This document shows positions 5,745-23,641 of a DNA stretch of 25,926 bases, piece after piece; positions within the stretch are counted from its first letter, which is position 1, and each line of letters opens with the position of its first letter. This DNA is from a virus, in IMG/VR virus record IMGVR_UViG_3300035660_000074, positions 1 to 25,926 of that record. The stretch is one strand, 5' to 3'. Below the pieces are notes generated by a model. It had not been told where the DNA came from. It did not search any database and saw only the letters and a program-made list of their open reading frames with translations. The position numbers were made by a program, and so were the translations under genes.

Positions 5745-6146
5745 TCACCTTGCAGTCAGAACATCAAATATAAACTGGTTGATTCCCATCTCTACCGGAC
5801 GACCATGGTAAGAAACAGGGGACCCTTTAGGATCAAAAACCCCTTGCGGTATAGAAGCATTGTCCGAGAACCACATCCTGCTCTTGTAATCCACGATAGA
5901 CCCATCTACCAATTCAATCCAATAGTGAGGGGTAAACTCCCCCATACCCTTTACACTGATCGTCCCCAGCATTGTCTTGTGAGGAACCCCAGCCCGGCTT
6001 AGTAGATAGGTGATTACTCTCGTCATGCCATCACATTCCAGAGGAAGATTTTGGTAAGGCTTTATCAAAGCGACGATCTCGTCAGTCAAACTTTCCCCAA
6101 AGAAACACACCAACTGCTTCGCCCTATTCATTTCAATCAAGTCCAT
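5745..6146 (-). CDS. Transglutaminase-like / papain-fold cysteine hydrolase
   Basis: A 133-residue protein with the order and spacing of a transglutaminase-like catalytic triad: Cys in LECDGMTRVITYLLSRAG (about residue 38), His in FTPHYWIEL (about 74) and Asp in GSIVDYKSRMWF (about 87). In such proteins the Cys attacks a peptide or isopeptide amide, with His and Asp completing the triad. No signal peptide is present. The start ATG 6146 has GGAGGA about 8 bases upstream and overlaps the preceding small gene's end by 14 bases. Just before the fibre operon, it could process, cross-link or cleave a virion or host protein; this is inference. I assign it on motifs only. Confidence 0.65.
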   Translation of the reverse strand: MDLIEMNRAKQLVCFFGESLTDEIVALIKPYQNLPLECDGMTRVITYLLSRAGVPHKTMLGTISVKGMGEFTPHYWIELVDGSIVDYKSRMWFSDNASIPQGVFDPKGSPVSYHGRPVEMGINQFIFDVLTAR

Positions 6147-8765: not shown

Positions 8766-9482
8766 TCAATTTTCTTCTTGTATGCTTTGTTCTTCAGCTT
8801 CTTTTTGAGCTCCCTTCTCCCTTGCATCACACACTAAATGGGCGATCTCAGTGAGGAAAACATTTTCTTCTGCCGCCGCCCCTGCCACCGACTCTGCCAC
8901 CGACTCTGCCGCCGCCCATGCCACCGACTCTGCCGCCGCCCCTGCCACCGACTCTGCCGCCGCCCCTGCCACCGACTCTGCCGCCGCCCATGCCGCCCTT
9001 GCCGCCTCTCTTGCCGCCGCCCATGCCGCCACTCTTGCCACCGACCTTGCCGCCTCTCTTGCCGCCGCCCATGCCGCCTTTGCCGTCCTATCTGTTCCAC
9101 TAAGCCAACCATTAGCCCAGGAAACAAAACTTGGCTCTTGATATACTCGTAAGCTACATCGGATGGCAAATTCTATCTTCATTTCCATGGTTATGATCGG
9201 CAGTGGAATGCGTTTGACGGTTGTGGCCTTAGTACATCCTACCTTCAGCCCATGATCGGTTTTCCTTACCTCACCCTCTCCTTCCCATAGGTGAGCAGTT
9301 TCTAAATTGTATTTACCCTGACACGGATTGAAGAGTACGGCAAGTAGGGGATCGGTTGTCCAGTGTGTCCATCCCGGCCCACAAAGTTCGCCTTCCCCAG
9401 AGGTTTCCACCGTTACGCCTTCTCCCCACTGGCAATCGCCGAAGGTTCGATCATTCTCTTTAGTCAATTTATATAGTTTCAT
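8766..9482 (-). CDS. Conserved phage protein with Ala-rich repeat tail (DUF7666-like)
   Basis: A 238-residue protein. Residues 1-130 contain YKLTKENDRTFGDCQWGEG, GELCGPGWTHW, DPLLAVLFNP, LKVGCTKATTVKRIPLP and FVSWANGWLSGTDRTA, which match a widespread phage family that I believe corresponds to DUF7666; its function is unknown to me. The family often ends in Ala-rich AAWAAAR-type tails, and here residues 133-205 are almost pure Ala helix built of AAxEAAR and AAAESVA(G/W) units. The acidic end EKGAQKEAEEQSIQEEN is encoded by a 50-bp segment repeated at 10423-10472. ATG 9482 overlaps the previous stop as ATGA. Reverse-strand and other-frame readings of the repeat are shadows. Confidence 0.8.
   Translation of the reverse strand: MKLYKLTKENDRTFGDCQWGEGVTVETSGEGELCGPGWTHWTTDPLLAVLFNPCQGKYNLETAHLWEGEGEVRKTDHGLKVGCTKATTVKRIPLPIITMEMKIEFAIRCSLRVYQEPSFVSWANGWLSGTDRTAKAAWAAAREAARSVARVAAWAAAREAARAAWAAAESVAGAAAESVAGAAAESVAWAAAESVAESVAGAAAEENVFLTEIAHLVCDAREKGAQKEAEEQSIQEEN
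8770..8819 (-). repeat. 50-bp exact direct repeat, copy 1 (partner at 10423-10472)
   Basis: Identical over 50 bases to 10423-10472, same orientation, 1653 bases apart. Here it encodes the acidic C-terminus EKGAQKEAEEQSIQEE of the Ala-rich protein. In the other copy it is read in a different frame. Confidence 0.9.
8896..8991 (-). repeat. 24-bp tandem repeat (four units) in the Ala-rich tail
   Basis: Four consecutive 24-base units starting GCCACCGACTCTGCCGCCGC on the + strand, differing only at the CCCCT/CCCAT end. Each encodes eight residues (AAAESVA plus G or W). A half unit precedes them at 8884, and looser GCC-rich repetition continues to about 9082. Near-perfect units suggest recent expansion. 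It is not a CRISPR array because there are no spacers. Confidence 0.85.
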
Positions 9483-17146: not shown

Positions 17147-17321
17147 CCACTACTATCCGGAACATATTGTCCCCTACATTTACCAACTGGAATAAGCCCA
17201 ATTGAATACTTTCACCAGGTTTAGTTCGCACAAGACCACCGAGTAGCCAGTGAGTCCAGCTAAGATATTTCTTTAGGGAGTTTCCTGTAACATTGAAAGT
17301 AGCCTCCAACTTTGACTTCAT
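17106..17321 (-). CDS. Hypothetical small protein, 71 residues
   Basis: Its ATG overlaps the previous stop (TGATG at 17323-17319), so it is translationally coupled to the gene before it. An N-terminal MKSKLEATFNVTGNSLKKYLSWTHWLLGG is followed by beta-like segments (GLFQLVNVGDNMFRIVVDEG). No Cys cluster or membrane segment; no family recognised. Such coupling often joins proteins made in equal amounts. Confidence 0.65.
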   Translation of the reverse strand: MKSKLEATFNVTGNSLKKYLSWTHWLLGGLVRTKPGESIQLGLFQLVNVGDNMFRIVVDEGELSREIESLL

Positions 17322-17797
17322 CAGCGAGGCCTCAAAGGAGTAAATCGAGGAATGTCCTTTAGGAAAGAAAAGGACCTCAACACTAAAAACTTCCCATAAT
17401 TCGGATCATGCACTGTGACTGCTCGCGGCTTAACTTCGTCCTCGTTGCACATACCAGAGAGAAACCAGGAGAACTCATCATGCGACACAGCCATATAGGA
17501 CCCGATGCGACTTTTTATCTCTCCCTTGTAGGCGTCCTTAACCACACACCACACAGGGTAATACAGAAGCAAAGCGTCCTCTTTGAGGCAAAGCTCCCGA
17601 AATACCCCCAACGACTCCAGTATCATTTTACTCTGTTCGTCAGTTCCTTCTACCCTGAAAAGACTGTCCAGGTCAATTCCAAACTTGCCCGCCAGCATAT
17701 GGTCCAAACCGTTCGGCTCTGTCCCCTCGCAGACCTTCTTATTTATCGACTTTGAAAATGATTCAAGAAAGCGTTGCTGGATTAGTTCTCCGCTCAA
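17321..17797 (-). CDS. Hypothetical phage protein, ~158 residues (TTG start)
   Basis: I start it at TTG 17797, which has a strong AAAGGGGGG six bases upstream. The same frame can be opened at TTG 17866, but those extra 23 codons lie in the hairpin end of a TnpB remnant and have no ribosome-binding site. The protein is mixed alpha/beta: ELIQQRFLESFSKSINK, FGIDLDSLFRVEGTD, ALLLYYPVWCVVKDAY and a DPNYGKFLVLRSFSFL stretch near the end. I recognise no domain. It appears to be the gene next to which the mobile element's right end came to lie. Confidence 0.65.
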   Translation of the reverse strand: MSGELIQQRFLESFSKSINKKVCEGTEPNGLDHMLAGKFGIDLDSLFRVEGTDEQSKMILESLGVFRELCLKEDALLLYYPVWCVVKDAYKGEIKSRIGSYMAVSHDEFSWFLSGMCNEDEVKPRAVTVHDPNYGKFLVLRSFSFLKDIPRFTPLRPR

Positions 17798-17829: not shown

Positions 17830-17908
17830 GTGAATGCTCCGCTGGCACGAGGCCAGCGGCATCCAACTCGCCTCTTGCGAGGCTTGTAGAGACTGCATTC
17901 CCAGTCTC
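17830..17908 (-). ncRNA. Omega RNA-like three-hairpin module, copy 1
   Basis: Three consecutive perfect hairpins on the transcribed strand: arms 17902-17908/17889-17895 (7 bp, GAGACTG/CAGTCTC), 17879-17883/17870-17874 (5 bp capped by a GCAA tetraloop) and 17852-17859/17839-17846 (8 bp, CCGCTGGC/GCCAGCGG). TTCAC ends the module 9 bases after the last stem. In IS200/IS605 elements the TnpB guide RNA covers the tnpB 3' end and element end, with the guide just beyond it; here that would start at 17829. Whether this RNA is made is unknown. Confidence 0.5.
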
Positions 17909-17976
17909 AAAATGTTCTTAGCAGCGTTCAAGTCTCTATAAAAATACGCCCGGTTCCAAGGTGAAGTTCTGTTGCC
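17830..17976 (-). pseudogene. TnpB (IS200/IS605 family) C-terminal remnant, copy 1
   Basis: In the gap after the glycosyltransferase stop, a frame with no start of its own reads AYFYRDLNAAKNILRLGMQS then LQASQEASW, the last catalytic segment (RuvC-III Asp, DxNAAxNIL) of IS200/IS605 TnpB nucleases. Only about the last 40-50 residues remain; the zinc finger and the other RuvC motifs are absent. Three hairpins overlap and follow the coding part, and the minus strand ends TTCAC at 17834-17830, resembling an IS right end. No left end, TnpA or full TnpB is visible. Confidence 0.75.
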
Positions 17977-17977
17977 A

Positions 17978-20263
17978 TCATTCCTCCAGAACTTTGCTGA
18001 GACTTGTTGCCATCCACTCTGGGGACGGCAAATTTAGACATCTTTTTTCATTCATCAAGCAGTGCTTCCACCAATTGTCCCCCGAAGCAACCGCCCACCA
18101 ACAGGGCTCGCATTCCCTTCGACTCACCCACTGAGACCATCCTCCAACAATCACAAAGGGATCATACGCGAAGCACTCTGATGGAGTCGTAGTAAACCAC
18201 ATCCAACTACGGACTCCCATACTGTGGGCAAGATGTGACCAAAATCCCTCGTTACCAACGTACATCTTGGCCTTGCTCAGAGTATAAGCAGATGCCTGAA
18301 GGCTCAACTTAATTCTCAAATCGACATCCGTACCCGGCAACTTGGGGTCAGCGATCGTCCCCAACTGAACGACTCTATATCCCCTTGACTGGATGACCTG
18401 AATCAACCGACTAATCTCCGCCTCTGAGAGAACTTTCAGGTTGCCCAATTTACCTGTACTATTGTGAACTACCACATAGGGCTCCTCTGGTATCAAGCGA
18501 CGCTCGTCTGCTGTCAAATCCTCCAGTGTCGGAGGATCTACCTTCAAATCTTCAATACTCGCATACGTATCCAAACCAGTGCTCTTCAGCATCAAGTCAA
18601 CTACATGCATCCCCAGGGAACGCAACCGAGAATTGGAAAACGCCCATCCATCGTAAAACGATTTGTGTTTCGTAAAGAACTCGGTTGGCTCCTCTCCGTA
18701 GACCCGACTCACATAACGCAGATCATAAAATAAATCGAAGACGTTAGAGAAGGTCTTCACTGCAGTTTCCTGATGTACCTCTCCCACATTAACAATACCA
18801 TCTATCAACTTGTCCTTGCTACAAATCCACTTTAGAAGCTGCTCCCCGCAATTCACCACAGCCACGACATAGGAATTTGGGTGCTTCCTCTTAATCCCAT
18901 GTAGCACTGGGAGAATCTGCAACATGTCCCCAAGGCCACCAAGTTTACAGACCCCTATCGTCGGACTAAAACCTCGCTCTTTTGCCTTACGAGATTCTTC
19001 TACACCATATACTCTACCACCAATCTGTGAGGGAAATTGCCAGGAATGAGGATTAACATCCTCCTTGTCGGAGTTCAAAGCAATTTTCGCCTTCTCTTCA
19101 ATAGATTCAAAGCACCTGTCCCAGGTCTTAGTCAGAGCCCACTTCCTGGCATTCTGCACTGCCAATTTAGACATACCTGTCCAGGCGCCATCTTTCCAAT
19201 CTTCGTAAGCTGCTTCCAGCATACTCACAGCTACCTCCAATGTTGGAACAGCCAACCTCTGCCCATATTGTCCGTAAATCCAATTTTCGACCGGAAGGGT
19301 ATAACCCCTATTGTCCGCCAGAAGTTCCGGGAAAGACGAATAGTCCGTCCCTGTTACTAAAACCCCGGACACCATGGCCTCCAGGACCGGCAAACCAAAC
19401 CCCTCCGCCATTGGCCAATCAATCAACAAATGGGACTCCCTATAAATCTTTGCAATCGCTGCATCACTCAGTCCCTTAAAAACTGATAGGCCCCTGGTAA
19501 AGGAAACCTTTTCCCACAGATCCGGATAAGAAGTAATAAACGCCTGCAAATCATGGCCTTCGTGGGACTCCACATCCGTCACCAAGAACAACTTAACGTT
19601 ATTCTTGCCCTGAGAAAATTGGCGAAACACCTCAATTGTAAATGGGATGTTCTTGCGAAGACAATTCTTAGCTACTACGAGGGCTTGAAAATCAGGTGGA
19701 GGAGGAACACGAGGTAAAGAAGGAAGAAACACAGAGGCATCCACTCCATGATGAACGGCTTTAATTCTATCCGGATTCCTTGAGAACTTGGACGGAATGG
19801 ACAGCAGGACCTTCTTGCCAAACTCGGTATGAACACAGACTTCATCAAAGGCATTGATCGTCTCAAAGAACTGATGCTGTAAAGGCTCAGCATCCACATT
19901 AAGATATCCTAAAAACACAGCTGACTTGGTCTTACCAGCCCGTGCCATCGACTGGTGTTCACCCTTGATCCTTGGCAAATCCAAGAAATAAAACAGATCC
20001 CCTATGCAAAGAACAACATCGGGCTGGGATGCCGACAGAATTTCACGGACTTTGCCAGCCTGTTTCTCTCTACGATCCAAAGCATAGAAAACAGTTCGGG
20101 CATTGTAATACTCCCCCGATCCCTGCATAGTCATCTGATGAAACCAGGCGGCGTAATCTATTTCCCATCCCTGACGAAGGAACCTACTCCCCAGTTCTCT
20201 GGCAACCCTGGCCATACCTGTGTATAGAAATGGGGAGTCGGTATAGATCAATACTTTCGGCAT
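17978..20263 (-). CDS. Two-domain glycosyltransferase (GT4-like plus GT9-like)
   Basis: About 761 residues from ATG 20263, which has GGAGG seven bases upstream and overlaps the previous stop (TAATG); an upstream start at 20317 would lie inside the neighbour. Residues 1-395 look like a GT-B GT4 glycosyltransferase: SPFLYTGMARVARELG (10-25), VHHGVDASVF (170-179) and the E-x7-E motif EGFGLPVLEAMVSG (287-300), which binds the sugar-nucleotide. Residues ~432-761 look like GT9 heptosyltransferases: GVCKLGGLGDMLQILPVLHG (437-456), VVVHNSTGKLGNLK and YVGNEGFWSHLAHSMGVRSW. It probably adds one or two sugars to phage DNA, a virion protein or a host surface molecule; the acceptor cannot be told. Confidence 0.8.
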   Translation of the reverse strand: MPKVLIYTDSPFLYTGMARVARELGSRFLRQGWEIDYAAWFHQMTMQGSGEYYNARTVFYALDRREKQAGKVREILSASQPDVVLCIGDLFYFLDLPRIKGEHQSMARAGKTKSAVFLGYLNVDAEPLQHQFFETINAFDEVCVHTEFGKKVLLSIPSKFSRNPDRIKAVHHGVDASVFLPSLPRVPPPPDFQALVVAKNCLRKNIPFTIEVFRQFSQGKNNVKLFLVTDVESHEGHDLQAFITSYPDLWEKVSFTRGLSVFKGLSDAAIAKIYRESHLLIDWPMAEGFGLPVLEAMVSGVLVTGTDYSSFPELLADNRGYTLPVENWIYGQYGQRLAVPTLEVAVSMLEAAYEDWKDGAWTGMSKLAVQNARKWALTKTWDRCFESIEEKAKIALNSDKEDVNPHSWQFPSQIGGRVYGVEESRKAKERGFSPTIGVCKLGGLGDMLQILPVLHGIKRKHPNSYVVAVVNCGEQLLKWICSKDKLIDGIVNVGEVHQETAVKTFSNVFDLFYDLRYVSRVYGEEPTEFFTKHKSFYDGWAFSNSRLRSLGMHVVDLMLKSTGLDTYASIEDLKVDPPTLEDLTADERRLIPEEPYVVVHNSTGKLGNLKVLSEAEISRLIQVIQSRGYRVVQLGTIADPKLPGTDVDLRIKLSLQASAYTLSKAKMYVGNEGFWSHLAHSMGVRSWMWFTTTPSECFAYDPFVIVGGWSQWVSRRECEPCWWAVASGDNWWKHCLMNEKRCLNLPSPEWMATSLSKVLEE

Positions 20264-20592
20264 TACTTTTCCTCCACCACTGGCTCGTAAGTAGCCTCGA
20301 AAATATCTGGCTTGCAAGGATACTTCTCTCCCTTAACTCCTGTGATAATCCAGTCTCCTGGGGACACAGCATGCTTGCCCTCCATTGTATCCACCACAGC
20401 CATTCTATCCCAACTCCAGTAAGGTGGCTCTTTACTGCAGCCACTCGTGCCAAGTAATTCTGATACTTCCCGGTAGGATGTTTTCCTAACTCCATTAGGC
20501 CATTGTGAAAGTGGCAGTTCGTACCACATTAAAGCGTCAGGGTTCCATTGCATCGCTTCAATCACTATAGGTTTCTGCCTGAATTTCAACAT
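20263..20592 (-). CDS. Phage PGDYG-like family protein
   Basis: About 109 residues from ATG 20592, nine bases after GGAGGA; in-frame starts at 20652 and 20613 also exist, but the family usually begins just before the MxKFRQKPIVIEAMQW-type segment. Family features: KPIVIEAMQWNPDA (residues ~6-20), then VVDTMEGKHAVSPGDWIITG and VKGEKYPCKPDIFEATYEPV near the end. This PGDxI...GEFYPCKPDIF pattern is widespread in phages and prophages, and I relate it to the PGDYG family (PF14083). Its biochemical role is not known to me. Coupled to the glycosyltransferase through TAATG. Confidence 0.8.
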   Translation of the reverse strand: MLKFRQKPIVIEAMQWNPDALMWYELPLSQWPNGVRKTSYREVSELLGTSGCSKEPPYWSWDRMAVVDTMEGKHAVSPGDWIITGVKGEKYPCKPDIFEATYEPVVEEK

Positions 20593-21469: not shown

Positions 21470-21560
21470 GTGAACTACCCCGCCCTTACGGACGGGGCTT
21501 CTTGGTTCGGCGAGAGCGACTGGCTCTCTCCCCAAGCGTAACTTTCCGTGGTTCCCACGG
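21470..21560 (-). ncRNA. Omega RNA-like three-hairpin module, copy 2
   Basis: Three consecutive hairpins on the transcribed strand: arms 21555-21560/21546-21551 (6 bp, CCGTGG/CCACGG with a GAA loop), 21523-21528/21512-21517 (6 bp, GAGAGC/GCTCTC) and 21490-21497/21478-21485 (8 bp with one G-U pair and a GUAA tetraloop). TTCAC lies 8 bases after the last stem, at 21474-21470. This matches the layout of the copy at 17830-17908. A guide, if one exists, would start at 21469 and cover the start codon of the 51-residue gene. Confidence 0.5.
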
Positions 21561-21615
21561 TAGCTCTTAGAGCTTTTTGGAGAATGTTTCGAGCGGCATT
21601 ATGATCCCGATCCAT
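21475..21615 (-). CDS. TnpB C-terminal fragment, 46 residues (intact mini-ORF with RBS)
   Basis: ATG 21615 lies nine bases after AAAGGAG and opens 46 codons: MDRDHNAARNILQKALRATV, then GTTESYAWGESQSLSPNQEA and PSVRAG. DRDHNAARNIL is the RuvC-III segment of IS200/IS605 TnpB with its catalytic Asp; all earlier TnpB domains are missing. Frame, start and ribosome-binding site are intact, so a peptide may be made, although it cannot act as a nuclease alone. The same DNA forms the three-hairpin omega RNA-like module. I cannot tell whether this is a decayed insertion that kept its frame or a retained element. Confidence 0.6.
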   Translation of the reverse strand: MDRDHNAARNILQKALRATVGTTESYAWGESQSLSPNQEAPSVRAG

Positions 21616-22532: not shown

Positions 22533-22850
22533 CTAAACCACCTTACGATCTTCTACTATCAATCCCCACAAAAGAGACAGGTACACTCTTGCATCCAACA
22601 GCCTGCCCAGAATATCCTCAGACTTAACCTCCCCGGTGGAGATGTAATTCGTGACTGCATCCAGGTGCTTCCGTAAGTAAACTCCCAGAACCACTTTGGG
22701 GTCCAGCTTAAACAGAGCACCAATTCGTTTGAAATTGTCCAAGCGATCATAACTATTCTGGTGAATATACTCGATCCCTTTTGTTTTACCAATAGCTCGT
22801 TCTTGTTCGAAAATTTCCTCCAACAAGGCATTGAAAAGTTCCTCGGTCAT
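22533..22850 (-). CDS. Conserved small phage protein (KxxDY...NFKR...KHLD layout)
   Basis: 105 helical residues with KGIEYIHQNSYDRLDNFKRIG (about 24-44), VVLGVYLRKHLDAVTNYI (53-70) and SEDILGRLLDARVYLSLLWGL (77-97). This layout recalls phage families that I associate with DUF1599/Nmad1-type proteins, possibly nucleotide-related, but the match is by eye only. The start ATG overlaps the previous stop as ATGA, so it is coupled to the IS110-like gene. Confidence 0.6.
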   Translation of the reverse strand: MTEELFNALLEEIFEQERAIGKTKGIEYIHQNSYDRLDNFKRIGALFKLDPKVVLGVYLRKHLDAVTNYISTGEVKSEDILGRLLDARVYLSLLWGLIVEDRKVV

Positions 22851-23641
22851 TTCAGGTACCTCCCTGGGTCATACATTTCTTTGTACTTTGCAATCATGGG
22901 ATCACCTATCGGCTCTGTCCCAGACTCTCGCCACCACACTATTAGCATGTGGGCAAGAAACATCTTAGCGGTCTTTCGCATTGCACGAGAGTTCACATGA
23001 CCCCGACTTATAGTCCCTTCTGGCTCGTAATGTTTAACTGTCAAAGCATCCACCGGCAAATCCTTTGCAAGTACAACCTTTATTCCCTTCTTTGCTAACT
23101 TAAATTCTATCGATTCCTTACATCGCTGATAATATCCAGCGTAAGCCTTGTCCTCCCCTATCAACCGCAAAACTTGAGACCAAACCAAAGGGCGAAGGAA
23201 AGGATTATACCTTCTCTTCTCTCCTCGCTTCCATCGGTTAACCTTTCCATTAACTGGGGAATCCAACGCATACTGCCAGAGCCCCGAAACGGTCCGACAA
23301 CGAGAGAACTGAATTAGTCCGACGATACGAGCCATAGTCTCGGGAGAGTTATTGATGGAATCGAGCCTTTCAAAGGAAGCCCGAACTGGATGGGATTGCC
23401 AATAATCGGACAACTGATTACGGAGGTCCTGTTCTACACTTCCTATTCCTACCACATTCCTCTCCCTAACAAAGCTTCGGCACTCCTGAAGGTCCATAAC
23501 AATCCCTTTGGAAAAAGTAGTAAGCTTCCCCCCCACCACACTCCCCTCATCAGAGTCCTCCAGGACCTTCCGAGCTTTTGCAAGGTAATCGAGCGCTCTA
23601 ATCACCGCTGTCAAATCCTTTTCCTCAAATACATTGCTCAA
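22847..23641 (-). CDS. Protein resembling the C-terminal half of IS110-type transposases
   Basis: 264 residues. From about residue 66 the pattern follows the Transposase_20 half of IS110/IS116/IS902-type proteins, especially the long variants with GHxxxRAxRKxxKxFLxHL: a helical lead (SVEQDLRNQLSDYWQSHPVR), then CRTVSGLWQYA (115-125), KRGEKRRYNPFLRPLVW (138-154) and GHVNSRAMRKTAKMFLAHML (214-233). The usual GIGP hairpin-helix motif is replaced by INNSPETMARIVGL. The N-terminal RuvC-like domain of real IS110 transposases is absent, and no element ends are seen, so it is probably a domesticated DNA- or RNA-binding phage protein. A dispersed-repeat copy lies just upstream. Confidence 0.65.
   Translation of the reverse strand: MSNVFEEKDLTAVIRALDYLAKARKVLEDSDEGSVVGGKLTTFSKGIVMDLQECRSFVRERNVVGIGSVEQDLRNQLSDYWQSHPVRASFERLDSINNSPETMARIVGLIQFSRCRTVSGLWQYALDSPVNGKVNRWKRGEKRRYNPFLRPLVWSQVLRLIGEDKAYAGYYQRCKESIEFKLAKKGIKVVLAKDLPVDALTVKHYEPEGTISRGHVNSRAMRKTAKMFLAHMLIVWWRESGTEPIGDPMIAKYKEMYDPGRYLK

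Follow-up and report, generated by a model that had tools for sequence, protein, structure and literature searches.

The window analysed here (25,926 bases) comprises an entire IMG/VR virus record, which is most likely a fragment, carries a terminase gene and has its long genes on the minus strand. In the intergenic space downstream of a glycosyltransferase gene, and oriented with the transcription of both flanking phage genes, lies a complete right end of a TnpB element (M1; Table 1), in which three stems are followed by GCATTCAC on the minus strand. The 9 nt tail after stem 3 reads AGCATTCAC, its final base being 17830. No predicted pair of M1 is broken, and its fold has a z-score of -3.3. 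The initial annotation had placed a solo TnpB end at 17830-17976, with three hairpins (7 bp, 5 bp with GCAA, and 8 bp) and a TTCAC lying 9 nt after the last stem, against 8 nt in another copy. The described features were all found, on the minus strand; the hairpins were confirmed at M1 by both sequence and fold, the two spacings were reproduced, and each of the numerical statements checked holds. The strand, the missing left end and a pseudoknot joining the stem-1 loop to the terminus were absent from that description.

Table 1. Features at and around the two orphan right ends; positions are those of the window.
Feature	Position	Strand	Evidence
Orphan right end M1 (108 nt, RD codons through TTCAC), very probably a reRNA scaffold	17830..17937	(-)	covariance model R1; aligns with the right ends of full-length TnpB genes
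TnpB C-terminal coding remnant RDLNAAKNILRLGMQSL	17887..17937	(-)	translation
M1 stem 1, 7 bp GAGACTG/CAGTCTC, loop GGAATG	17889..17908	(-)	covaries in relatives, with double changes at 6/7 pairs
M1 stem 2, 5 bp GCCTC-GCAA-GAGGC, GCAA tetraloop	17870..17883	(-)	fold; the equivalent stem covaries in relatives
M1 stem 3, 8 bp CCGCTGGC/GCCAGCGG, loop CTCGT	17839..17859	(-)	fold; covaries
M1 terminal CATTC, forming the pseudoknot with the stem-1 loop GAATG (17900-17896)	17832..17836	(-)	pairing and covariation test
TTTAT directly left of M1, fitting the TTTAY motif that precedes the left end in full-length relatives	17938..17942	(-)	sequence; post hoc enrichment test
Predicted 16-nt M1 guide CCGGGTATCGTAAAAG, phage flank	17814..17829	(-)	analogy to the ISDra2 reRNA
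Upstream phage gene, two-part glycosyltransferase	17978..20317	(-)	Pfam
Downstream phage gene, homologue of L003 7196-7669	17321..17797	(-)	ORF lists
Second orphan right end M2, of another right-end type (GAAGCCCC..GGGGTAGTTCAC), tail MDRDHNAARNIL	21470..21615	(-)	R1 match, E 1.8e-4; sequence

The identity of M1 was assessed with a covariance model (R1) built from 15 cellular right ends, M1 being left out. R1 matched M1 end to end (model positions 1-101) with 65.6 bits and an E value of 1.8e-14, which, with the fold z-score, puts the module beyond chance. In an alignment of 16 right ends used for stem covariation, the three-stem structure was paired in 97.2% of cells, and the compensatory stem changes across relatives that the initial annotation had suggested as a check were found, in 51 double-change cells against 13.2 in shuffled alignments and 3-11 in slid controls; M1 itself adds little to the stem-2 part of this count, because its stem 2, though intact by sequence, is shifted in the alignment. 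The pseudoknot pairing was present in 98.8% of cells across the family, with 11 double-change cells and 0 in slid controls, and M1 pairs GAATG with CATTC as in the ISDra2 reRNA pseudoknot. The order of the stems is common to M1 and its full-length TnpB relatives. A degenerate-pattern scan of the genome collection gave one match, in a Gemmatimonadota MAG (L090), where a full-length TnpB ends NILRLGMQS.., as the M1 remnant does, and is followed by an M1-type right end closing GGAGCATTCAC; further M1-type relatives were found in the same phylum and on a Desulfosarcina plasmid. Since the stems are conserved with compensatory changes in full-length relatives, the suggestion that such ends might be common truncation products with no stem conservation fails on the latter point. 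The Rfam gathering and E-value scans of the module returned nothing credible, and the four viral-contig matches to the pattern GCAGTCTC..GGAGCATTCAC were all chance sequence inside other genes. M1 thus joins the 3′ end of tnpB to a right end with conserved stems and carries the pseudoknot between the stem-1 loop and the right-end terminus, both of which mark a reRNA, and has no cognate TnpB in cis, hence the orphan form. Taken together, the covariance match, the covarying stems and the pseudoknot indicate that M1 is very likely the scaffold of a TnpB guide RNA (reRNA) of a defined type.

The other parts of a transposon were then sought. Phage coding sequence with homology to the nearest relative continues as far as 17978, where its stop codon lies, and the stretch from there to M1 contains no left-end hairpin. 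Left-end-like sequence was found beside neither M1 nor M2, so that the two palindromic ends of a miniature IS605 element are not present. An 8-bp palindrome at 17994-17964 was rejected as a hidden left end, as it overlaps the last glycosyltransferase codons and is unsurprising by chance at such length, and a duplicated protospacer left of M1 (CCGGG..TAT on both sides) was likewise dismissed (p = 0.23 vs random stretches). Domains of tnpA (PF01797) and of TnpB OrfB (PF01385) were detected neither in the window nor in the 100-kb relative. For PF07282, the window gave sub-cut-off matches only, one of which is the M2 tail, and the 100-kb relative gave 0; a tblastn search with 23 TnpBs against that relative also returned nothing. 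The locus accordingly holds no complete IS200/IS605 element with tnpA and/or tnpB between a left and a right end. Elsewhere in the window, a strong 10-bp intergenic hairpin, perhaps a terminator, lies at 8744-8717 of the minus strand (GAGCGGCGGG..CCCGCCGCTC), and 8766-9482 of the same strand encodes a protein containing a long run of alanine-rich repeats (AAWAAAREAAR.. and AAAESVAG).

M2 terminates at 21470 with TAGTTCAC (8 nt), 3.6 kb from M1, and the two modules belong to different right-end types. The TnpB tail of M2 has an ATG of its own (21615-21613, minus strand) with a GGAG 9 nt upstream, and may thus encode a 46-aa peptide. That two TnpB ends reduced to the same part argue against chance, as the initial annotation had reasoned, stands insofar as two different right ends are indeed reduced to the same part, but the argument is weakened in that truncation with loss of the left end is not rare. 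Of about 60 right ends of the M1 type in 11 bacterial MAGs, about 7, in interior positions, lacked the left end together with all or most of tnpB, and ordinary truncation is therefore a live explanation.

The nearest relative of the phage is a 100 kb contig (L003/G001) with a 60% identical terminase, which is empty at both the M1 and the M2 sites; at the former, its next gene starts 9 bases after the glycosyltransferase. Searches via the portal, terminase and glycosyltransferase recovered only this relative, and none with an M1 insertion at the same site. R1 nevertheless matched this contig at two other places, copy A at G001 5753-5849 (L003 3517-3613; E 8.6e-14) and copy B at G001 51681-51754 (E 7e-9). 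Some 46 kb separates the two copies, which are flanked by different sequence, have unlike predicted guides and share 71/74 bases, the base differences being in a loop or preserving the pseudoknot pairing; neither is identical to M1, of which the window has one copy. Copy A keeps NASVNILALG of the TnpB tail, copy B starts just before stem 1, and no left end was found at either. Four orphan reRNAs thus occupy four sites in two related phages, all co-oriented with the neighbouring genes, and their occurrence in phages without tnpA and tnpB is the strongest sign against a one-off accident; M1 is possibly dispersed in this phage lineage. As to their surroundings, one sister orphan comes after a strong hairpin and what is probably a capsid gene, and the other lies between the tRNA-Met and lytic transglycosylase genes. 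The position corresponding to copy A is occupied in the window by a gene (22847-23641, minus strand) for a 264-aa protein matching PHROG 4285 'transposase' (E 3e-17).

Right ends without tnpB were also surveyed more widely. Among 80 viral loci with an M2-type terminus, many carry a full tnpB, and the tnpB-less viral right ends are mostly miniature elements composed of a left and a right end (L081, L074), as in L081, whose 52 bp left end and 166 bp right end are 93% identical to a full element. A miniature element of this composition, ending GCCCCGTCCGTGAGGGCGGGGTAGTTCAC, was also seen in the Acidianus tailed spindle virus (L093 1720-2033), its right part overlapping the hypothetical protein ATSV_D57. 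For the M1 type, the count given above excludes many copies that stop at a contig edge some 100 nt from the right-end terminus, these being assembly breaks. Three of the counted cases (L162, L178 and L181) begin near the RD/NAA codons, two begin elsewhere (L165, L169) and two consist of the hairpin only (L179, L180); L162 and L179 are not fully independent, because they have a right flank in common. A further candidate orphan (L171), in which the C-terminus of an IS3-family transposase runs straight into the RD codons of an M1-type right end at a contig end in G036, was left out because it is such a joined element. Break points are concentrated in the reRNA 5′ region (3/8 non-window cases; P ~0.004, post hoc). 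The left end of full-length relatives is preceded by TTTAT or TTTAC, and TTTAY was found within 16 nt of the left junction in 5 of 11 cases (M1, copy A, L162, L178 and L181; P 1.7e-6 vs the genome-wide background), an enrichment which is a lead only, because both the window size and the motif were chosen post hoc and intergenic DNA is richer in A+T.

Beyond its own site, the predicted M1 guide was matched nowhere in the window or G001, nor by any exact 18-mer in the viral contigs; for neither module did a guide target turn up among exact 18- or 19-mers of those contigs. A 12-nt match of the copy A guide in G001 was rejected as a target, as it ends at 12 nt and lacks a TAM.

Established here are the identity and structure of M1, the absence of the transposon parts from the record and the recurrence of orphans in the sister phage. 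Our favoured reading, held at a little under even confidence, is that M1 is a functional non-autonomous orphan reRNA unit, with a phage-derived guide and a nuclease supplied in trans. Read-through transcripts of the phage would contain the M1 scaffold, and a TnpB of the host or of a co-resident element, if of the right type, could trim it and load it with the guide CCGGGTATCGTAAAAG, because TnpB, which requires a TAM, trims the 5′ side of its reRNA itself (PMC8612924, PMC10278001). The loaded complex might then cut related phage DNA that carries the TAM and the guide sequence without the insert, and repair from the insert-bearing copy could help the unit to persist; a TnpB that does not accept CATTCAC as a TAM would leave the phage's own copy uncut. 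Such orphan units could disperse and survive as guide-RNA elements dependent on a nuclease in trans; the left-end-less form may have arisen by left truncation, by interrupted repair or through something linked to the reRNA 5′ end. As a related phage without tnpB carries two more of these RNAs, phages may keep them for use with another party's nuclease. It is unlikely, though conceivable, that the dispersed nuclease-less guide-RNA genes of this lineage are RNA-only homing elements, flanked by a TAM and copied or retained through the TnpB of the host or of another element, whose insertion may be reRNA-templated or associated with TnpB breaks and have a fixed 5′ boundary. TnpB guide RNAs are normally regarded as parts of their own transposon; if the favoured reading is true, intact scaffolds without a nuclease in a phage lineage would mean that guide RNAs can travel or persist alone and borrow, or interfere with, a nuclease.

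About as likely as such an orphan reRNA unit is inert debris, namely that a TnpB element inserted and then lost its left end and the bulk of tnpB to a deletion, leaving behind a right end that is harmless between genes. The truncated right ends of bacterial MAGs, with their various break points (L165, L169, L179, L180), are what this would leave, as are the core deletions common in Haloquadratum IS605 elements and the C-terminal remnants there (PMC3119063), and the failure to find a guide target in the window, G001 or the viral contigs fits it as well. Less readily explained by decay are the near-identity of two of the four orphans at distant sites, in phages devoid of tnpA and tnpB, the intactness of every predicted M1 pair and the post hoc clustering of break points at the reRNA 5′ region.

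Phage solo CRISPR repeats titrate Cas proteins, and by analogy an orphan scaffold could act as a decoy that titrates the host TnpB. An intact scaffold without a nuclease and a guide that matches nothing found are consistent with this; however, there is no evidence of TnpB harming these phages, and a single copy in a polycistronic transcript may be too little, so that we regard a decoy as improbable. It is very improbable that the hairpins have nothing to do with TnpB and serve the phage in transcription termination or RNA processing: the module is intergenic and strongly folded, which speaks for this, but has no U-run and no terminator-like site, and the pseudoknot and the tnpB codons would be left unexplained.

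Among known systems, the ISDra2 and AmaTnpB reRNAs resemble M1 in consisting of the 3′ end of tnpB plus the right end and in pairing the stem-1 loop with a UUC-containing terminus, which in the ISDra2 structure forms the pseudoknot (PMC10097598). The scaffold lengths are 116 nt for ISDra2, 106 nt for AmaTnpB (deduced from a 126-nt processed RNA with a 20-nt guide) and 108 nt for M1. Other TnpBs use a reRNA that is processed out of the tnpB transcript plus right end and whose last ~16 nt are flanking DNA serving as the guide, and TnpB also works with a separately supplied reRNA (PMC8612924, PMC10278001). Unlike these reRNAs, M1 has no tnpB in cis and is known from sequence alone. PATEs are nuclease-free IS605 derivatives, one of which, HqIRS71, retains a portion of the TnpB C-terminal region (PMC3119063), and strong transcription during infection is documented for a PATE of the archaeal virus HRTV-DL1 (PMC10544981). 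M1 is similarly IS605-derived and nuclease-free with a retained TnpB C-terminal coding part, but PATEs have palindromes near both ends, and because its left end is absent M1 is not a PATE by definition. The full elements L090 and L091 (on a plasmid of Desulfosarcina BuS5) have M1-type right ends, ending GGAGCATTCAC or GGGGAGCATTCAC, and differ from M1 in that their tnpB is full-length. For IscB, omega RNAs that stand alone have been described. The most fitting name for M1 is orphan reRNA, as a variant of the known TnpB guide RNA.
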